From Bradyrhizobium sp. LHD-71 (lineage in GTDB: Bacteria > Pseudomonadota > Alphaproteobacteria > Rhizobiales > Xanthobacteraceae): a stretch of 64,000 nucleotides of DNA. The notes beneath the pieces were generated by a model that saw nothing but the letters and a program-made list of their open reading frames with translations, had not been told where the DNA came from and ran no database searches. The position numbers and the translations under genes are program-made. Shown here in pieces: positions 54,878 to 61,882 of this stretch. The stretch is from NCBI RefSeq assembly GCF_031157255.1, contig NZ_JAVIFX010000014.1, forward strand, positions 119,288 to 183,287. The letters run 5' to 3'. Every line of letters starts with the position of its first letter. The stretch's first letter is position 1.

Positions 54878-55630
54878 TCAAGCCAGCCCCAGGCCGCCAT
54901 CGACGGCGACAACCTGGCCCGTGATCCATTGCGAGCCGGGGCCTGCGAGCTGGACGATCCATTGTGCGATGTCGTCGGGAACGCCGCGCCGGCCGAGCGG
55001 GATCCGTGCGCGCTCCTCTTCCTCGACGGCTTCTGCCATGTCCGCGGACAGCCCCATCATTCCGGTCAAGGCGCCGGATTCCGTCGGGCCGGCTGCGACC
55101 GCATTCACCCTTATTCCGAGCTGCGCGAGCTCGAGCGCCCAGCAGCGGGTCAGGTGCTCGAGCGCCGCCTTGCTGGCGGCATAGTGGGATAGTCCCGCGG
55201 CCGGCCGGTGACCGAAAGTCGAGGAGATGTTGACGATGGTGCCCTGCGTCGCTTTCAGGTGCGGAAGGGCGGCTCGGGCCAGCAGGGTTGGGCCGACCAC
55301 GTTGACGGAAAAGATGTCTGCGATCCGATCGGCCGTTGCATCCGATAACGGAAGGATGGCTCCTGCGCCGGCGTTGTTGACGAGCGTGTCCAGCCGGCCC
55401 CATTTGCCGACCGCCTCGGCAATGGTCCGCTCGGCGTCTTCGGCGGAGGCGGTATCCGCAATCAAGCCCGCGATATTCTTATGCTCCGCCATGGTTTGCT
55501 CGAGAGGGCCGGCGCGGCGGCCGGTGATGAGCACCTTGTCGCCCTGGTCGGCGAAACGGAGCGCGGCGGCCCGGCCGATGCCGGAGCTTCCGCCCGTTAT
55601 GATCACGACTTTCTCGTTCTGCATGTTCAT
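54878..55630 (-). CDS. Short-chain dehydrogenase/reductase (last gene of operon)
   Basis: A classical 250-residue SDR: TGGSSGIG (residues 12-19) for NAD(P), NNAGAG, ISS, and Y-A-A-S-K as the catalytic Tyr-Lys. It is the last of four minus-strand genes running from the small exported peptide at 58423 through a flavoprotein and a metallo-hydrolase. No strong ribosome site is seen at 55630; the first Met of MNMQN is chosen. The longer frame upstream is a shadow. Confidence 0.9.
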   Translation of the reverse strand: MNMQNEKVVIITGGSSGIGRAAALRFADQGDKVLITGRRAGPLEQTMAEHKNIAGLIADTASAEDAERTIAEAVGKWGRLDTLVNNAGAGAILPLSDATADRIADIFSVNVVGPTLLARAALPHLKATQGTIVNISSTFGHRPAAGLSHYAASKAALEHLTRCWALELAQLGIRVNAVAAGPTESGALTGMMGLSADMAEAVEEEERARIPLGRRGVPDDIAQWIVQLAGPGSQWITGQVVAVDGGLGLA

Positions 55631-55770: not shown

Positions 55771-56721
55771 TCAGTAGTCCCAGAAGACCGGCACCCAGCG
55801 AAAGGCGTCGCCTTCGACGGCCACGCGGCCGACGGACGGGAACGGCAGGTGGGTTGCCACCAGCATCTCGCCGGTCTCGGCCAGCTCCCGCAGAAGACGG
55901 ATGCGAACGCGGGCCGCCTCCTCGGGGTCGTGTTCGAAGCCGTTGAACCATTCGGGCTGCTCGAACCCGACCGCGAACACGGCGTCGCCGGCGAACGTCA
56001 GCGCGTCGCCGCCTGACGCCACGCGAACCACGCTGTGCCCGGGCGTGTGACCGCCGGTGCGACGGGCGACGACGCCCGGCGCAACTTCGTGCTGCTCATC
56101 GAACTGCCGGAGCTGACTGCCGAACTCCTTCACGAACCGCTTGGCGGTCGCCCGGAGCGCGTCGGGAAATCCCTGCGGCATGTCGGTGTGGGAGAAATCG
56201 GGCGCCTCCCAGAATTTCACCTCGGCGGCCGCCACGTGGATCCGCAGGTCCTTGCGCAGCCGCTCCTTCACACCGTCGACGAGCAGCCCGCCGATGTGGT
56301 CCATGTGCAAGTGGGTCAGCACCAGGTCGGTCACGGACGCGAGATCGATGCCGGCAGCTTCCAGTCGCCTGATCAACTGCCCGGCCCGCGGCAAGTTCAG
56401 GTTCGGGTCGGACCCCAGTCCGGCGTCGATGAGGATCTTCTTGTCGCCGCTTTGGACCATGACCGCATTCAGCGCCCAGTCGAAAGCGTCGGACGGCAGG
56501 AACATGTCGTCCAGCCAGGCCGCCCGCTCGGCCGGCGCGGCGTTGTGGGCCAACATCTTGGTTGGCAGCGGCAGCACGCCGTCGCTGACGATCAGCACGT
56601 CGATGTCGCCGACCCGTACCGCATAGCGCGACGGAACGAGTTCTTCGGGTTTCTGAGCGACGTGTGCAATATCCAGGCTCATGTTTGTCTCCTGTTGAGT
56701 GTTGCGGACCACGTGATTCAT
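55771..56721 (-). CDS. Metallo-beta-lactamase-fold hydrolase (MPH/lactonase-like)
   Basis: The 316-residue protein has the HxHxDH zinc motif THLHMDHIGG (His137, His139, Asp141, His142), a further His in TGGHTPGHS and the FAGDAV Asp, the full di-zinc set. The sequence resembles the methyl-parathion-hydrolase group, which includes lactonases. Two starts each have a ribosome site: ATG 56721 after GAGGAG and ATG 56682 after AGGAG; the longer form adds 13 residues. No signal peptide. It lies between the flavoprotein and the SDR in an operon. Confidence 0.9.
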   Translation of the reverse strand: MNHVVRNTQQETNMSLDIAHVAQKPEELVPSRYAVRVGDIDVLIVSDGVLPLPTKMLAHNAAPAERAAWLDDMFLPSDAFDWALNAVMVQSGDKKILIDAGLGSDPNLNLPRAGQLIRRLEAAGIDLASVTDLVLTHLHMDHIGGLLVDGVKERLRKDLRIHVAAAEVKFWEAPDFSHTDMPQGFPDALRATAKRFVKEFGSQLRQFDEQHEVAPGVVARRTGGHTPGHSVVRVASGGDALTFAGDAVFAVGFEQPEWFNGFEHDPEEAARVRIRLLRELAETGEMLVATHLPFPSVGRVAVEGDAFRWVPVFWDY

Positions 56722-56800: not shown

Positions 56801-58006
56801 TCAGAGATCGGTGACACGCTCGGGATCGGCCGATGCCAGGGCAGCGGCACGCTCGGCCTTCGGCGGATAGATCCACACGGTGTTGATCTCCTGCTTGGTC
56901 TTCTTCGCGACGTCGCCGACCATCTCCACCTTGCGCTCCCAGCCGCGCGTGAACAGTGCGCCGGCATCGCCGAGGTCGAGACAGGTCACGTAGGCCTTCT
57001 GGTGGTAGGGTCTTGTCGCAACTCCGAGCAGCTCCGCAGCCGCGTTGTTGCCGGCGAAGGCGCCCATCCGTGTGGCGTGCTGACACGACATCAGCGAGTA
57101 GTTGCCGATATCATCGCAGGCGGCGCGAGCGGCGTCGCCGGTCGCGAAGACGCCGTCGACGCCCGGGACGCGCAGATCGCGGTCGACCAGCAGCCGGCCG
57201 AAATTGTCGCGCTCGGCTGGAATCTGCGTGGTCAATGGCGCGGCGCGAATGCCCGCCGCCCAGATCACCGTCTCGGTTTCGATGTGCTCGCCATTCGAGA
57301 GCGTGACGCCGGTTTTGTCGAGCGAGGCCACACCGGCGCCGAGACGCGTTTCCACGCCAAGCTTGTGCATGGCATCCTCGATGATCGGGCGGGGACCTGC
57401 GCCCATGTCGGGCGCTATCGCGCTGTTGCGGTCGACGATGATGACGCGGGTCTTGGCGTCCTTGCCGAAGATCTCGCGAAGCCGCGCCGGCATTTCGGTG
57501 GCCGCCTCGATGCCGGTGAAACCGCCGCCGGCAACGACAATCGTGTCGCGCCCGTTGGCGGCGGGCCGCTTGGCGAGGCCATGCAGGTGCTTGTCGAGGG
57601 CAATCGCATCGTCGAGCTGGTCGACGCTGAAGCTGTGCTCGGCAAGACCGGGAATGTTCGGACGAAACAGCCGGCTGCCGGTGGCCACGACCAGGCGGTC
57701 GTAAGACAGCGTCTTCCGCGCGCCTTTGCCGGTCGTGATCTGCACGGTGCGGGATTTGGTGTCGACCGTCTCGGCGCTGCCTTGCACATAGGTCACGTCG
57801 ACGGCCTTGAGCACATCGAGGAGTGGCGCGGTGAGGGTTTCGGGATGCGGCTCATACAGCCGGGGGCGAACCACCAGCGTCGGTTCAGGCGAGACCAGCG
57901 CGATCTCGAGTCTGCCGGCGTCGACGCCGTGGATTTCGCGCAAGCGCGCAGCGGAAAGGGCGGCATACATGCCGGCGAAGCCGGCGCCGATAATGACTAG
58001 TCGCAT
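56801..58006 (-). CDS. NAD(P)/FAD-dependent oxidoreductase, NDH-2-like
   Basis: The 401-residue protein has two dinucleotide folds: RLVIIGAGFAGMYAA at the start for FAD and IVVAGGGFTGIEAA (about 165) for NAD(P)H, with the FATGDAA motif near residue 295. It resembles type II NADH dehydrogenases, which pass electrons to quinones, but lacks an evident membrane anchor. GAGGAG precedes the ATG at 58006. It is the second gene of the four-gene operon facing the AraC regulator. Confidence 0.9.
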   Translation of the reverse strand: MRLVIIGAGFAGMYAALSAARLREIHGVDAGRLEIALVSPEPTLVVRPRLYEPHPETLTAPLLDVLKAVDVTYVQGSAETVDTKSRTVQITTGKGARKTLSYDRLVVATGSRLFRPNIPGLAEHSFSVDQLDDAIALDKHLHGLAKRPAANGRDTIVVAGGGFTGIEAATEMPARLREIFGKDAKTRVIIVDRNSAIAPDMGAGPRPIIEDAMHKLGVETRLGAGVASLDKTGVTLSNGEHIETETVIWAAGIRAAPLTTQIPAERDNFGRLLVDRDLRVPGVDGVFATGDAARAACDDIGNYSLMSCQHATRMGAFAGNNAAAELLGVATRPYHQKAYVTCLDLGDAGALFTRGWERKVEMVGDVAKKTKQEINTVWIYPPKAERAAALASADPERVTDL

Positions 58007-58129
58007 GTGATATTCTCCTCTTGTTGGGTCTTCTCGGGTACAGACGCGTTGCGACCGCCGCTGCCGGATTGCGGCAAGCCTTGTTGCGGGCAGCAACAGC
58101 GCAAGTTGGTAAAATGAACTCGCCGGTTC

Positions 58130-58423
58130 TCAGGGAGCGATGCAGCCGGGCGGTGACCAGCTCGGCTGCCAGCTCTGGCGAGAAACGATCGGCTGCGCAG
58201 ACCTGCGGTCCCATTCGTGAGAGGGATCGCGCGAGCTATCCCTGGTCATGATTGACAACTTCAGATGCGCAAGTTGTGCGGGAGGCGTCGAAATTTTCAT
58301 CTCTTCTCCCGCCGCAGAGGTGAAGCGGACGACCAGCGAAAGTCCGTACACCAGGGCGGTCACGAGGCCCCTTCGTGGTGACGGGATTGCCAGCCGGCCG
58401 ACGAAGTTCTTTCCGACCATCAT
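58130..58423 (-). CDS. Small exported peptide, paralogue of the one at 60867
   Basis: The 97-residue protein starts with two Met codons (58423, 58420) after CGGAGA. A basic N-terminus and hydrophobic stretch TALVYGLSLVVRFTSAA look like an export signal, followed by a polar region with SIMTRDSSRDP and SAQPI. It is a clear paralogue of 60867-61145: VYGLSL, VRFTSAA, SIMT, DSSR and SAQPI are shared. In the core the DNA differences are mostly in third positions, which supports real coding. It is first in an operon with the flavoprotein, hydrolase and SDR. No family is known to me. Confidence 0.75.
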   Translation of the reverse strand: MMVGKNFVGRLAIPSPRRGLVTALVYGLSLVVRFTSAAGEEMKISTPPAQLAHLKLSIMTRDSSRDPSHEWDRRSAQPIVSRQSWQPSWSPPGCIAP

Positions 58424-58606
58424 TTGTCTCCGTCCGTTCGACATGGTGATGGTCTAAATGATCAGGTCTGCCGCTGCGCCAGAGCGATTGCGGTCCTTGT
58501 AGAGCGATTGCTGCTAACGCCGGCGCGCCGCCAAGTCGCTGAAAATTGCCAGGATGGCCCGGCCGCTCATGTGCCTTCCGCGGATCACGGCCGCAGGTGT
58601 GGATCA

Positions 58607-58741
58607 CACTATCTTTAAGGATAGTGGACGTGCGCACATGTCCAATATATCTCCGTCAGCTCCAGAGCGATGCGGCTTGCTTGCGGGGCGCCATCGTGGC
58701 GGCCGAAGCGTCGTATAAACTACTTAAAGGTCGCATAAACT
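58607..58741 (+). promoter_or_regulatory. Control region of AraC regulator 1 with direct and inverted repeats
   Basis: Two direct repeats, GTCGTATAAACT (58710-58721) and GTCGCATAAACT (58730-58741), 20 bases apart, fit the layout of AraC-type half-sites; the second ends at the base before the start codon. Further upstream a 7-bp inverted repeat, CACTATC (58607-58613) / GATAGTG (58620-58626), lies in the gap between the divergent genes (58424-58741). Confidence 0.55.
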
Positions 58742-59689
58742 ATGAGTAAGTCGACCACGCGCGATCCGCTGCAGGAGACTCCGTCCACCGCGTCCGAGAC
58801 GCGGCAAAGCAACGTGCCGGATGCCGAGGGGCGTCCCGATGTGGAGATGGCACGCGTGCTTGGGACCACACCTTTTCACATGGCTTTGGATTCCTCCGGT
58901 GCGGGGATAGCGCACTGGAAGCATGAGCCATTGCACGACGTCGTCGCGCCGATGGCCCATCACGTCATCATGGCCTACAACGGCTCGGTGCAGCGCATGG
59001 AGCGGCGGTCAGGAAAGTCTGTCTCGATTGGCACGTTTCGTCCTGGAGTGGTGATCATCATTCCGGAAGGATCAAGCTCCCGATGGGATATTCCGAAACC
59101 CGTCGACGTCGTTCAGCTCTACCTCCCTCGCACAACGATCGAGCGGGTTGCCCGGGAAACAGACACGGGCACATCGGCCGAACTTCTGGAGCGAACAGCC
59201 TATCCTGACCCCATTACCTCCCGGCTGCTCGTGAGCGCGGCGGACGTTCTGGATGGCAACGAGGCCCTGGATGCGCTCTTCAGGCAGCAGCTGACGGATC
59301 TCCTGGCCACCCGGCTCCTGGCTGCGCACACTGGCTCGCCGCCCGCCATCCAGCCCGCCATGGGTGGGCTGTCGCCGAAGGTTCTACTCCGTGCCATCGA
59401 ACGCTTGCGCGCGGACAGCGTCGCCGACGTCTCTCTCTCGGCGCTGGCTTCGGATGCCGGCCTGTCGCACTTCCACTTCTGTCGTGCCTTCAAGCAAAGC
59501 ACGGGACTCTCACCTCATGCCTGGTTGCGCCAGCATCGCCTTGAGCAGGCCATGAACATGCTGCGCGACACTGACGAGTCGATCGTCTCGATCGCCGCAG
59601 CGCTCGGCTATTCCTCGCAAACGGCGTTCGCCGCGGCGTTCAGGAAGCTGACCGGACAAACGCCTGGCGACTGGCGGCGCAAGCGTTGA
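58742..59689 (+). CDS. AraC family transcriptional regulator 1
   Basis: The 315-residue protein has an N-terminal cupin-like ligand domain (about residues 30-200; GIAHWKHEPLHDVV, RPGVVIIIPEGSSSRWDIP) and a C-terminal double HTH (about 215-315; VSLSALASDAGLSHFHFCRAF and SIAAALGYSSQTAFAAAFRKL). It is divergent from the small peptide/flavoprotein operon and likely controls it and itself. It is closely similar, over its full length, to regulator 2 (same 315-residue size), evidence of tandem duplication. The start codon abuts a direct repeat and no ribosome site is clear. Confidence 0.9.
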   Translation: MSKSTTRDPLQETPSTASETRQSNVPDAEGRPDVEMARVLGTTPFHMALDSSGAGIAHWKHEPLHDVVAPMAHHVIMAYNGSVQRMERRSGKSVSIGTFRPGVVIIIPEGSSSRWDIPKPVDVVQLYLPRTTIERVARETDTGTSAELLERTAYPDPITSRLLVSAADVLDGNEALDALFRQQLTDLLATRLLAAHTGSPPAIQPAMGGLSPKVLLRAIERLRADSVADVSLSALASDAGLSHFHFCRAFKQSTGLSPHAWLRQHRLEQAMNMLRDTDESIVSIAAALGYSSQTAFAAAFRKLTGQTPGDWRRKR

Positions 59690-59820
59690 TTTGCGAGTTC
59701 AGGGTCCTGGGGCGCATATTCATAAATTCGACATGTCCGCGACGAATGACATACCGCCGCGCCGCAAATGCGCCGAACAAATCCAATTGAAGTGTCCCTG
59801 AACGGACGAAGTCATTGACC

Positions 59821-60768
59821 ATGAGTTGCGGGCCAATCCTGCGTGACATCTCGCAGCCGCCTCAGTCTTCCGAGGCGACTCAGCACCCTCTGCCGAACGG
59901 TGAGCCCCGTTCCGCCGATCTCGAAATGGCGCGCGTGCTGAAGACCGCGCCGGTCAGAATGGCCTCAGATCCGGACAGCGGAGCCATCGCTCACTGGAGA
60001 CATGGCGCCCTGCATGATGTCGTCGAGCCCATGGTGGACCACGTTATCATGACGTATCCAACCGGCGCGCAGCGGCTGGAGCGGCGCAACGGAAAATCAG
60101 TCGCGATTGGAACGGCACGCGCCGGGGTGGTAACGATTATTCCGGCCGGCTCAAGCGCGCGCTGGGACATTCGCGGGCCCGTCAATGTCGTTCAGCTTTA
60201 CCTTCCCCGCAGGACGCTCGAGCGCGTAGCCGACGAAGCCGGCAGATCGGCAGCGGAGCTGCTGGAGCGGACGGGGCATCCCGATCCCGTCACATCCGGT
60301 CTCCTCATGAGCGCATCGGATGCGATTGAAGGCAGCGCGACGCTGGATGCGCTGTTCAGGCACCAGCTCAATGATCTTCTTGCCACCCGCCTCCTGGCCG
60401 CGCATGCCGGCGCGCCTGCCGCGTTTCAGCCGAGCCTGGGAGGCCTTTCGCCAAATGCGCTGCGCCGCGCGATCGAGCGTCTGCATTCGAACGACGATAC
60501 GGACGTCTCCCTCGCCGCATTGGCTTCAGATGCCGGCTTATCGCGCTTCCACTTCTGCCGCGCCTTCAAGGAGAGCACCGGGCTTTCGCCGCATGCCTGG
60601 CTGCGACAGCACCGGCTCGAGAAGGCCATGAAGCTGCTGCGCGACACCGACCACTCGGTCGCCGCGATCGCCGCGGCGTTTGGCTACGCCTCCCAGACCG
60701 CCTTCGCTGCGGCCTTCAGGAAGCTGACCGGCGAAACTCCGAGCGACTGGCGGAGGCGCATGCGTTAG
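59821..60768 (+). CDS. AraC family transcriptional regulator 2 (paralogue)
   Basis: The 315-residue paralogue of the regulator just upstream. The cupin-like N-domain (GAIAHWRHGALHDVVEPM) and the HTH domain (VSLAALASDAGLSRFHFCRAF, AFGYASQTAFAAAFRKL) are conserved. I use the ATG at 59821 rather than a TTG at 59815. It lies 131 bases after regulator 1 on the same strand and 98 bases before the second small peptide gene, so it may share a transcript with that peptide. The spread of the duplicates suggests partly different inducers. Confidence 0.9.
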   Translation: MSCGPILRDISQPPQSSEATQHPLPNGEPRSADLEMARVLKTAPVRMASDPDSGAIAHWRHGALHDVVEPMVDHVIMTYPTGAQRLERRNGKSVAIGTARAGVVTIIPAGSSARWDIRGPVNVVQLYLPRRTLERVADEAGRSAAELLERTGHPDPVTSGLLMSASDAIEGSATLDALFRHQLNDLLATRLLAAHAGAPAAFQPSLGGLSPNALRRAIERLHSNDDTDVSLAALASDAGLSRFHFCRAFKESTGLSPHAWLRQHRLEKAMKLLRDTDHSVAAIAAAFGYASQTAFAAAFRKLTGETPSDWRRRMR

Positions 60769-60866
60769 CCGCAATCGCTCGATAGCCGCCGCAATCGCGC
60801 TCGCGCAGCGGCCGGCGTGACCAGCTAGACCACGATCATCATCTCCATGCCAACTGACGGAGACAG

Positions 60867-61145
60867 ATGATGATCAGCAGGAACTTCATCGCCCGGGCAA
60901 TCGCGCCACGAAGGCGCCTCATGACCGCCGTCGTGTACGGACTTTCTCTGGCGGTCCGCTTCACATCAGCGGCGGAAGAAGCGCCGCAATCCGCACAGCG
61001 CGCGCACCCGCCGATTTCGATCATGACCAGCGACAGCTCCCGCCTTCCGTATCAGCACGGGGGCGCCAATTCTGCGCAGCCGATCTTCTTTCGTCGTGGC
61101 TGGCCGAAGGCGGGTGATTCAGTATCCCAGAGCGCCAGAGTCTAG
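60867..61145 (+). CDS. Small exported peptide 2, paralogue of 58130-58423
   Basis: The 92-residue protein has two Met codons (60867, 60870) and a leader ACGGAGACAG nearly identical to that of its paralogue. It shares the hydrophobic TAVVYGLSLAVRFTSAA stretch and the SIMTSDSSR and SAQPI motifs. Placed on the same strand after AraC regulator 2, unlike copy 1, which diverges from AraC 1. Both copies lie beside an AraC gene. Function unknown. Confidence 0.75.
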   Translation: MMISRNFIARAIAPRRRLMTAVVYGLSLAVRFTSAAEEAPQSAQRAHPPISIMTSDSSRLPYQHGGANSAQPIFFRRGWPKAGDSVSQSARV

Positions 61146-61239: not shown

Positions 61240-61836
61240 CTAAGTGCTGGGGAGCGGCGTTTCGGTGGATGTGGCCCGACGGCGGACGTACACAAGGAGG
61301 GCGGCGTGGAAAAGCACCGCGACTGCAAGCCCGATGACGTGATCGCGTGCGTTCACGGTCGGGTCGTGCGACAGCACCCACAAGGTCCAAATCGTGAGCG
61401 GAAAGAACAGGACAACGGCGCTGCCGAGGCCGGGGTTGTAGCGGCGTAAAAGAGCGGAGGCGGCGACGTGCGTCAGCGCGTTGACGAGCATGAGGTAGAC
61501 AGCGATGAGCCCGAGGCCGAGCTCGACAAAACGCGCCAGGTATAGCGCAGCGAGGTTGACGCCCCACACGCCCGCAATGTTGACCCAGACGACCGCTGTG
61601 GTCGTCAGCGCCTCACGCCCGTGGCCGATCTGCTGGTTGACGAAGCGGCGAAATCGATCGCCTGCGTGCTCCTCCACCTGGTGCAGCATGTAGACGGGTC
61701 CGTGCAGATAGATGAGAAGCAGCGCGAGGCTCCAGTTCGCCGCGAGCAGCGGCACCAGAGCCAGCAGAAACAGGCCGGCGATGAGGCCGGCATACATCCA
61801 GTTGGCGAACAGCCATGTGCGGATGGGGGAGATCAT
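61240..61836 (-). CDS. HXXEE domain membrane protein
   Basis: The 198-residue protein has about six membrane helices and the HXXEE motif HQVEEH, with the second conserved stretch NALTHVAASALLRRYNPGL. The family is of unknown function. The start at 61836 has CGGAG 9 bases upstream; a Met at 61869 has no such site. It diverges from an SDR gene. Confidence 0.85.
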   Translation of the reverse strand: MISPIRTWLFANWMYAGLIAGLFLLALVPLLAANWSLALLLIYLHGPVYMLHQVEEHAGDRFRRFVNQQIGHGREALTTTAVVWVNIAGVWGVNLAALYLARFVELGLGLIAVYLMLVNALTHVAASALLRRYNPGLGSAVVLFFPLTIWTLWVLSHDPTVNARDHVIGLAVAVLFHAALLVYVRRRATSTETPLPST

Positions 61837-61882
61837 TGCGACAGCTCCGGGCGGCAGGCGTTGTTGCATATGATCTGTTCGC

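Follow-up and report, generated by a model that had tools for sequence, protein, structure and literature searches.

Gutted chloroperoxidase-like hydrolase genes beside AraC regulators in Bradyrhizobium may be kept for their predicted export signal

We analysed a stretch of 64,000 nucleotides (nt) from Bradyrhizobium sp. LHD-71 (contig NZ_JAVIFX010000014.1, positions 119,288 to 183,287; hereafter the window), in which two short genes, here called stubs, lie beside two genes for AraC/XylS-type regulators. The original prediction had described this arrangement as a duplicated module of an AraC regulator and a small exported peptide of no known family. The two small open reading frames (ORFs; 58130-58444 on the minus strand and 60867-61145 on the plus strand) proved to be related (55% identity over 85 residues, E 1e-24), and all five words said to be shared by their peptides (VYGLSL, VRFTSAA, SIMT, DSSR and SAQPI) were present in both. 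The two AraC ORFs, as described, were equal in length at 315 amino acids (aa), with 67% identity across 302 aligned residues, and copy 1 was divergent from its AraC gene while copy 2 followed its own. The family start site in an alignment of 81 stubs placed the start of copy 1 at 58423 or 58420, not at 58444; AraC2 would comprise 317 aa if a TTG at 59815 were used as start. The genes run in the order short-chain dehydrogenase, MBL-fold hydrolase, flavoprotein and copy 1 (all minus strand), followed by AraC1, AraC2 and copy 2 (plus strand), with these features:

54878..55622, minus strand: short-chain dehydrogenase, of a kind that ends some related clusters
55771..56721, minus strand: MBL-fold metallo-hydrolase, nearest to AidB lactonases, below the curated cut-off
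56801..58006, minus strand: NADH-dehydrogenase-like flavoprotein (Pyr_redox_2, E 2e-46), 123 nt after copy 1
58130..58423, minus strand: stub copy 1, with predicted twin-arginine signal, hydrolase-like core and tail GCIAP; 97 aa, or 96 aa if the second ATG (58420) is used
58301..58348, minus strand: conserved motif of copy 1 (YGLSLVVRFTSAAGEE), residues 26-41; family ratio of nonsynonymous to synonymous change (dN/dS) 0.10
58484..58511, minus strand: likely AraC operator ahead of copy 1, formed by the tandem repeat GCAATCGC with period 20
58512..58541, minus strand: possible remnant of the 3' end of an AraC gene since lost, immediately ahead of the repeat, as at other loci
58742..59689, plus strand: AraC1, AraC/XylS-type regulator, 315 aa (HTH_18, E 2.5e-26)
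59821..60768, plus strand: AraC2, AraC/XylS-type regulator, 315 aa (HTH_18, E 1.8e-28)
60771..60798, plus strand: likely AraC operator ahead of copy 2, formed by the tandem repeat GCAATCGC with period 20
60867..61145, plus strand: stub copy 2, 92 aa, or 91 aa from the second ATG
60936..60980, plus strand: conserved motif of copy 2 (YGLSLAVRFTSAAEE)

Searches of the stub against Pfam and NCBIfam gave no family, and neither the window stubs nor four relatives had a Pfam hydrolase match above cut-off. A protein search with the peptide returned 270 relatives at E up to 1; among the matches listed (120 of 270), lengths ranged from 74 to 122 aa, mostly 94-97, and the organism names on four listed relatives were all Bradyrhizobium. 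A 31-row profile, built from the two window peptides and 29 chosen from the relatives listed, matched solved chloroperoxidases (1a88, E 5e-4; 4dgq, 1.3e-3; 1a8s, 5.3e-3) over stub residues 57-89, which align to the first ~30 residues of these cofactor-free (non-heme) chloroperoxidase/arylesterase hydrolases. The N-terminal strand pattern of the chloroperoxidases, ..DG..Y.DWG...P.VF.HGWP, recurs in the stub family, loosened in many stubs. The weaker matches of the window peptide fell in open frames of ~330 aa, and all four that were tested were alpha/beta hydrolases (Pfam Abhydrolase_1, E 7e-31 to 1e-35). These full-length relatives carry a similar signal at the same kind of locus and begin like the stubs (SRRK.LA...Y..S.TVR..SA.G). 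Unlike the hydrolases, the stub has no nucleophile motif: GHSTGG was present in 25/25 full enzymes, whereas GHSTG occurred in no stub ORF. The HGW of the strand pattern is often altered in stubs, and AlphaFold2 returned a single helix at residues 16-34 and no other fold. The stub is therefore the start of a non-heme chloroperoxidase-like alpha/beta hydrolase whose catalytic body has been lost, and we rejected the idea of an unknown family, since the profile match, the tail alignments described below and the enzyme loci all name the family.

Loci were then compared across the genus, where at least 150 matches were found. We fetched 80 regions (L070-L149), namely 20 drawn from rows 1-30 and 60 from rows 31-102, together with 20 further regions (L152-L171) chosen for an open frame of at least 334 aa, suggesting a full enzyme. 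Rows outside these regions, weaker stubs among them, are excluded from the counts, so that fractions such as 21/23 and 75/81 below describe the chosen sample and are not rates for the genus. A stub was present in 77 of the 80 regions L070-L149, and a full enzyme alone in the other three (L123, L124 and L127). With the window's two stubs and those of L034 and L035, the set studied comprised 81 stubs; one of our alignments (A3) contains one row in duplicate. Degenerate second copies or fragments lie by intact stubs at L090:6608-6724 and L080:173-514; the former, of 62 aa, was dropped before counting, and the 92-aa fragment in L080, a better match to the enzyme query, was not counted as a stub. 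An in-frame stop was found in 2 among the 150 matches listed, stubs and enzymes together. A match at 1e-6 was found in 171/265 Bradyrhizobium genomes, again counting both. With a 40-row profile, 14/199 relatives, spread over 5/114 genera, matched at E 1e-8 or better, full enzymes included; a scan of genome contigs gave one locus, L031. Stubs were identified in the genome of the window, among Bradyrhizobium genomes and in genome G027, and three more genomes of the genus of G027 match the profile.

The usual unit consists of an AraC gene, the peptide gene and an NADH-dehydrogenase-like flavoprotein gene, and copy 1 retains the last of these downstream. The flavoprotein gene lies directly behind the stub in 75/81, with a gap of 97 to 158 nt. 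Blocks such as TTTCACCTCTTCGCGTCGTCG and GAGCGGCGGCGGTAGCGCGC recur in this spacer (58007-58129 in the window, and 75 loci), whose overall rate of change is near that of third codon positions. Among near-complete AraC matches, 52/96 end 98 to 132 nt ahead of a stub match. The original prediction had proposed a conserved AraC neighbour as a check, and stubs do usually adjoin AraC genes in Bradyrhizobium. The 23 Bradyrhizobium enzyme loci (the 20 regions fetched for that purpose plus L123, L124 and L127) showed the order AraC, hydrolase, flavoprotein in 21, so that the enzyme occupies the stub's place; of the two exceptions, L165 begins at a contig end and L170 has a dehydrogenase instead. Two full hydrolases lie outside the 23 and inside the enzyme set used for dN/dS: L036 (G027), where the hydrolase is followed by the flavoprotein gene, with the MBL gene divergent and no close AraC gene alongside, and L032, in the window's own genome, without any of these neighbours. 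Stub and enzyme clusters co-occur in single genomes (G027, G180, G181, G258 and G279, loci read), and the gutted cluster is therefore a paralogue rather than just a cluster that lost its enzyme. A tree of the flavoproteins mixes stub and enzyme loci, with deep forks too weak to count stub origins; in the stub tree the full enzymes form one clade among stubs, with many forks open, and the two window stubs cannot be placed.

The tails of ten stubs were compared with the 3' end of the hydrolase gene. In six of them (L081, L118, L128, L122, L133 and L117) the hydrolase 3' end, read in another frame, aligns to the tail, so that ~650 nt were lost mid-gene with a frame shift, at least in those six. 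The cleanest case was L122, whose alignment includes no flavoprotein start and scored 88 vs 31 for the highest shuffle; L081 scored 101 vs 25, aided by the flavoprotein start. In the remaining four the match was confined to the region around the flavoprotein start. The claim of a hydrolase origin for the tail is confined to these six and does not extend to short-tailed stubs, those of the window included. Neither the Cys nor the final Pro of the tail was associated with presence of the flavoprotein gene (Fisher p 0.21 for the Cys, 0.10 for the Pro). At L099, L107, L114, L116 and L122 a hydrolase of ~276 aa without a signal adjoins the stub, an arrangement that looks like signal and enzyme split into two genes.

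Selection was estimated as dN/dS over 40 independent pairs among the 81 stubs and 12 independent pairs among 25 enzymes; pairs less than 1% apart were omitted from all sums, and very distant pairs from the stub sums. The stub motif YGLSLAVRFTSATGEE (residues 26-41) gave 0.10 (0.06-0.14), the hydrolase-like core 0.57 (0.49-0.67), the tail 0.48 and the whole stub 0.44. In full enzymes the motif gave 0.28 (0.19-0.40) and the core 0.08 (0.06-0.10). Selection is thus reversed, with the core strictest in the enzyme and the motif strictest in the stub. Third positions changed at 0.203 per codon in the motif vs 0.204 across the stub; being as free in the motif as elsewhere, they identify the protein as the target of selection, and selection on DNA or RNA as the cause of the motif was rejected. 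Twelve residues (Y26, G27, L28, S29, L30, V32, R33, F34, T35, S36, A37 and G39) are each present in at least 76/81 stubs, and Arg33 in 81/81. The motif was kept in 6/6 stubs without a flavoprotein gene directly behind, vs 72/75 with one, and in two of the six the core had loosened: L126 matched the consensus at 10/30 core and 16/16 motif positions, and L121 at 12/30 and 15/16. As these stubs keep the motif, that neighbour is not required in cis.

The window pair itself gave a different picture from the one first reported, in which most DNA differences in the shared core fell in third codon positions. Over 91 aligned codons the differences were 32/25/31 by codon position, with no third-position bias overall; by region they were 0/2/4 in the motif (biased), 6/8/11 in the core (weakly biased) and 11/7/6 in the tail, where copy 2 is without the family tail. 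Copy 2 keeps the motif minus one residue and has no flavoprotein gene behind it. That the stubs are genes still holds, because of the family-wide dN/dS values and not because of this pair, and the family data agree with the description of a small peptide that carries a predicted export signal and is selected at the protein level.

The predicted signal resembles twin-arginine (Tat) signals, which have a twin arginine and an Arg after the hydrophobic stretch. RR precedes the hydrophobic stretch in 74/81 stubs, both window copies among them; the stretch is weakly hydrophobic, an Arg stands before the likely cleavage region and an Ala at the likely site. Unlike usual Tat signals, the hydrophobic and cleavage parts are almost invariant and no cargo domain follows. 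As the stub is preserved most strictly in this predicted signal stretch, the stretch itself likely has a job.

Upstream of the stubs shown, a tandem repeat, GCAATCGCTCT-N9-GCAATCGC, lies directly behind the AraC stop codon and ~70 nt ahead of the stub start. In 73/81 stubs the repeat had period 20 and no more than 2 mismatches across two 8-base sites (16 bases), while shuffled controls (one per sequence) never fell below 4 mismatches. Three more stubs, excluded from the 73, have period 19, and the period-19 matches in L138 and L148 overlap an AraC-like end and may be due to chance. Of the last five stubs, L092 carries the repeat with 3 mismatches and four have an intervening hydrolase gene, three of these with the repeat before it. 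L121, which precedes HlyD and MFS efflux genes, also carries the repeat upstream. A stricter pattern was found in 5/23 enzyme loci (L123, L124, L167, L169 and L171). A pattern written after both window copies had been seen, and made to fit both, occurred twice in the 7.48-Mb genome of the window, once before each stub, and a reversed control gave zero; a search of the window for the repeat with its spacer set to 10 bases rather than 9 gave one unrelated place only. Direct repeats whose period is close to two helical turns, placed ahead of the gene, are a feature of AraC-type operators, and this was the arrangement in the 73 stubs. Because of its place and period, the repeat is likely to be an AraC operator.

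To trace the regulators, we compared AraC1 and AraC2 in a tree of AraC sequences. AraC1 fell in a clade of 52 rows (support 100/100), of which 30 were stub-proximal, 21 distal and one neither, with L107 as its nearest relative (100/90). AraC2 fell in a separate clade of 25 rows (98/92), 22 of them stub-proximal, nearest to L130 and L135 (100/100). AraC1 and AraC2 are old paralogues from two clades, and, as they are not each other's nearest relatives, a local duplication of an AraC-peptide module was rejected; the duplicated module first proposed is partly wrong. A tandem pair of near-complete AraC genes precedes one stub in 16/77 stub loci (L073, L075, L077, L078, L080, L082, L083, L085, L086, L092, L111, L119, L131, L136, L143 and L149). 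AraC1, AraC2 and stub 2 look like such a tandem-AraC cluster from which the flavoprotein gene has gone. Stub 1 with the flavoprotein, MBL-fold and dehydrogenase genes looks like a second cluster, one in which the AraC gene was lost. The candidate AraC remnant before the copy 1 repeat is weak (~29 nt, score 30 vs a shuffle maximum of 36).

Taken with the homology to the hydrolase, the position shared with the enzyme, the frame-shifted tail in 6/10 stubs, the reversed selection and the conserved upstream repeat, these comparisons suggest a gutted hydrolase in which selection keeps the predicted export-signal segment, working alone as a membrane micropeptide and probably induced by AraC; from sequence, we put the probability of this reading at about 0.5. 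A full-length hydrolase with an export-type signal would have lost ~650 nt mid-gene, and with them its catalytic body. The neighbouring AraC regulator would induce the stub via the upstream repeat, and the predicted twin-arginine segment would insert in the membrane as a micropeptide. We infer that the segment works as a twin-arginine signal and that it remains in the membrane, where it would act in trans on a partner; the adjacent flavoprotein or the MFS/HlyD efflux pump of two clusters would be candidates. The more specific proposal, that the selected product is the export signal itself, placed under stricter selection once the enzyme was deleted and now a membrane or signalling peptide that is induced by the regulator and acts in trans, is more tentative, with the odds somewhat against it. 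The stub resembles the single-helix small membrane proteins CydX, AcrZ and KdpF in being short, in its one predicted helix and in being encoded beside larger genes, and differs from them in its origin from an enzyme by deletion, its twin-arginine-type start and its tail of ~55 residues.

Several observations weigh against the micropeptide reading. The twin arginine is replaced by RK in 6/81 stubs and by neither RR nor RK in one, and the helix model is of low confidence (predicted local distance difference test, pLDDT, 55). The dN/dS values come from simple counting with GC bias uncorrected, although enzyme and stub were treated alike. The invariance is contiguous (26-37) and not confined to one helix face, fitting a linear reading and helix packing alike. 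The motifs of L035 and L129 are eroded (11/16, with cores at 11/30 and 15/30) despite a flavoprotein gene behind, and window copy 2 is without the family tail and its Cys. L126 is no proof that the cell can dispense with the flavoprotein, because its genome, G138, also holds the L129 stub with a flavoprotein gene.

Other explanations account for part of these data. In SecM and MifM, stalling in a leader sets the expression of the gene behind, and the stub could likewise be the first ORF of an AraC-controlled mRNA, where a stall on the motif or on the terminal Cys-x-x-Pro would tune the next gene. Its length (~96 aa), signal-like N-terminus and closely following flavoprotein gene recall SecM, MifM and VemP; the contiguous invariance of the motif would also fit, as would the tail, with a terminal Pro in 64/81 stubs and a Cys among the last 6 residues in 78/81 (the last Cys being exactly three residues from the end in 66/81). 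In the stub, however, conservation lies in the signal and not at the end, and no strict C-terminal stall sequence was seen, only the Cys and final Pro standing out in the loosely held tail. No clearly constrained RNA was found between the genes: the spacer changes at 0.189 vs 0.204 at stub third positions, about equal; its consensus fold was weak (-3.0 vs -0.3 +/- 0.7 in 30 column shuffles, the lowest of which reached -3.6); and the Rfam search gave no family above chance, with one chance-level match to an unrelated family. Because of the spacer rate, the lack of a strong RNA fold and the motif kept without the gene behind, we regard a stalling leader as unlikely, and we rejected a leader of the flavoprotein gene as the stub's sole role, as stubs without that gene behind keep the motif and the spacer evolves at nearly the rate of third positions.

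Cleavage near Ala37 might instead free a linear piece that acts as a signal, as in enterococci, where pheromones derived from lipoprotein signals act as released signal peptides. This would explain why the contiguous invariance ends at a possible signal-peptidase site while the remainder of the stub evolves faster; no messenger of this sort with a twin-arginine signal is known to us, however, and we consider it improbable. Slightly more doubtful is a stub that serves only as a partner of the flavoprotein, for example as its membrane anchor. The 75/81 adjacency favours this, and G138, which has L126, carries the flavoprotein gene at another locus (L129), but L126 and L121 precede other genes with the motif intact, L121 being judged at that locus only. 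The least probable alternative is a slowly decaying, functionless relic whose signal is kept by chance or promoter proximity. Core and tail are looser, and decaying copies do exist (the second copy in L090, the L080 fragment, window copy 2, L035 and L129), yet a relic would hardly show a motif held more strictly than in the full enzyme with free third positions, a core dN/dS still below 1, so few in-frame stops, and a retained ribosome-binding site and repeat.

To our knowledge, no such family has been described. The motif letters were not found in literature text searches, the papers listed by related literature searches showed nothing on the stub, and a term search of PMC5082802, on small ORFs of B. 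japonicum, gave no match. The signal-bearing enzyme and the gutted gene in the same genus would form a before-and-after pair for the birth of a bacterial micropeptide, with selection shifting its weight from catalytic core to signal. As full and gutted clusters coexist and Bradyrhizobium is genetically tractable, the function of a signal without cargo is directly testable.

Neighbouring genes were also recorded. HlyD and MFS efflux genes lie in or behind the AraC-stub clusters at L034:2450-5217 and L121:4471-7304, suggesting a toxic compound as the cue for the regulon. The MBL-fold hydrolase (55771-56721, minus strand), often present in the cluster, is nearest to AidB acyl-homoserine lactonases (124 bits vs a cut-off of 360) and may act on lactones. 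Convergent with stub copy 2, a gene at 61240-61869 on the minus strand encodes an HXXEE-family protein (Pfam PF13787).

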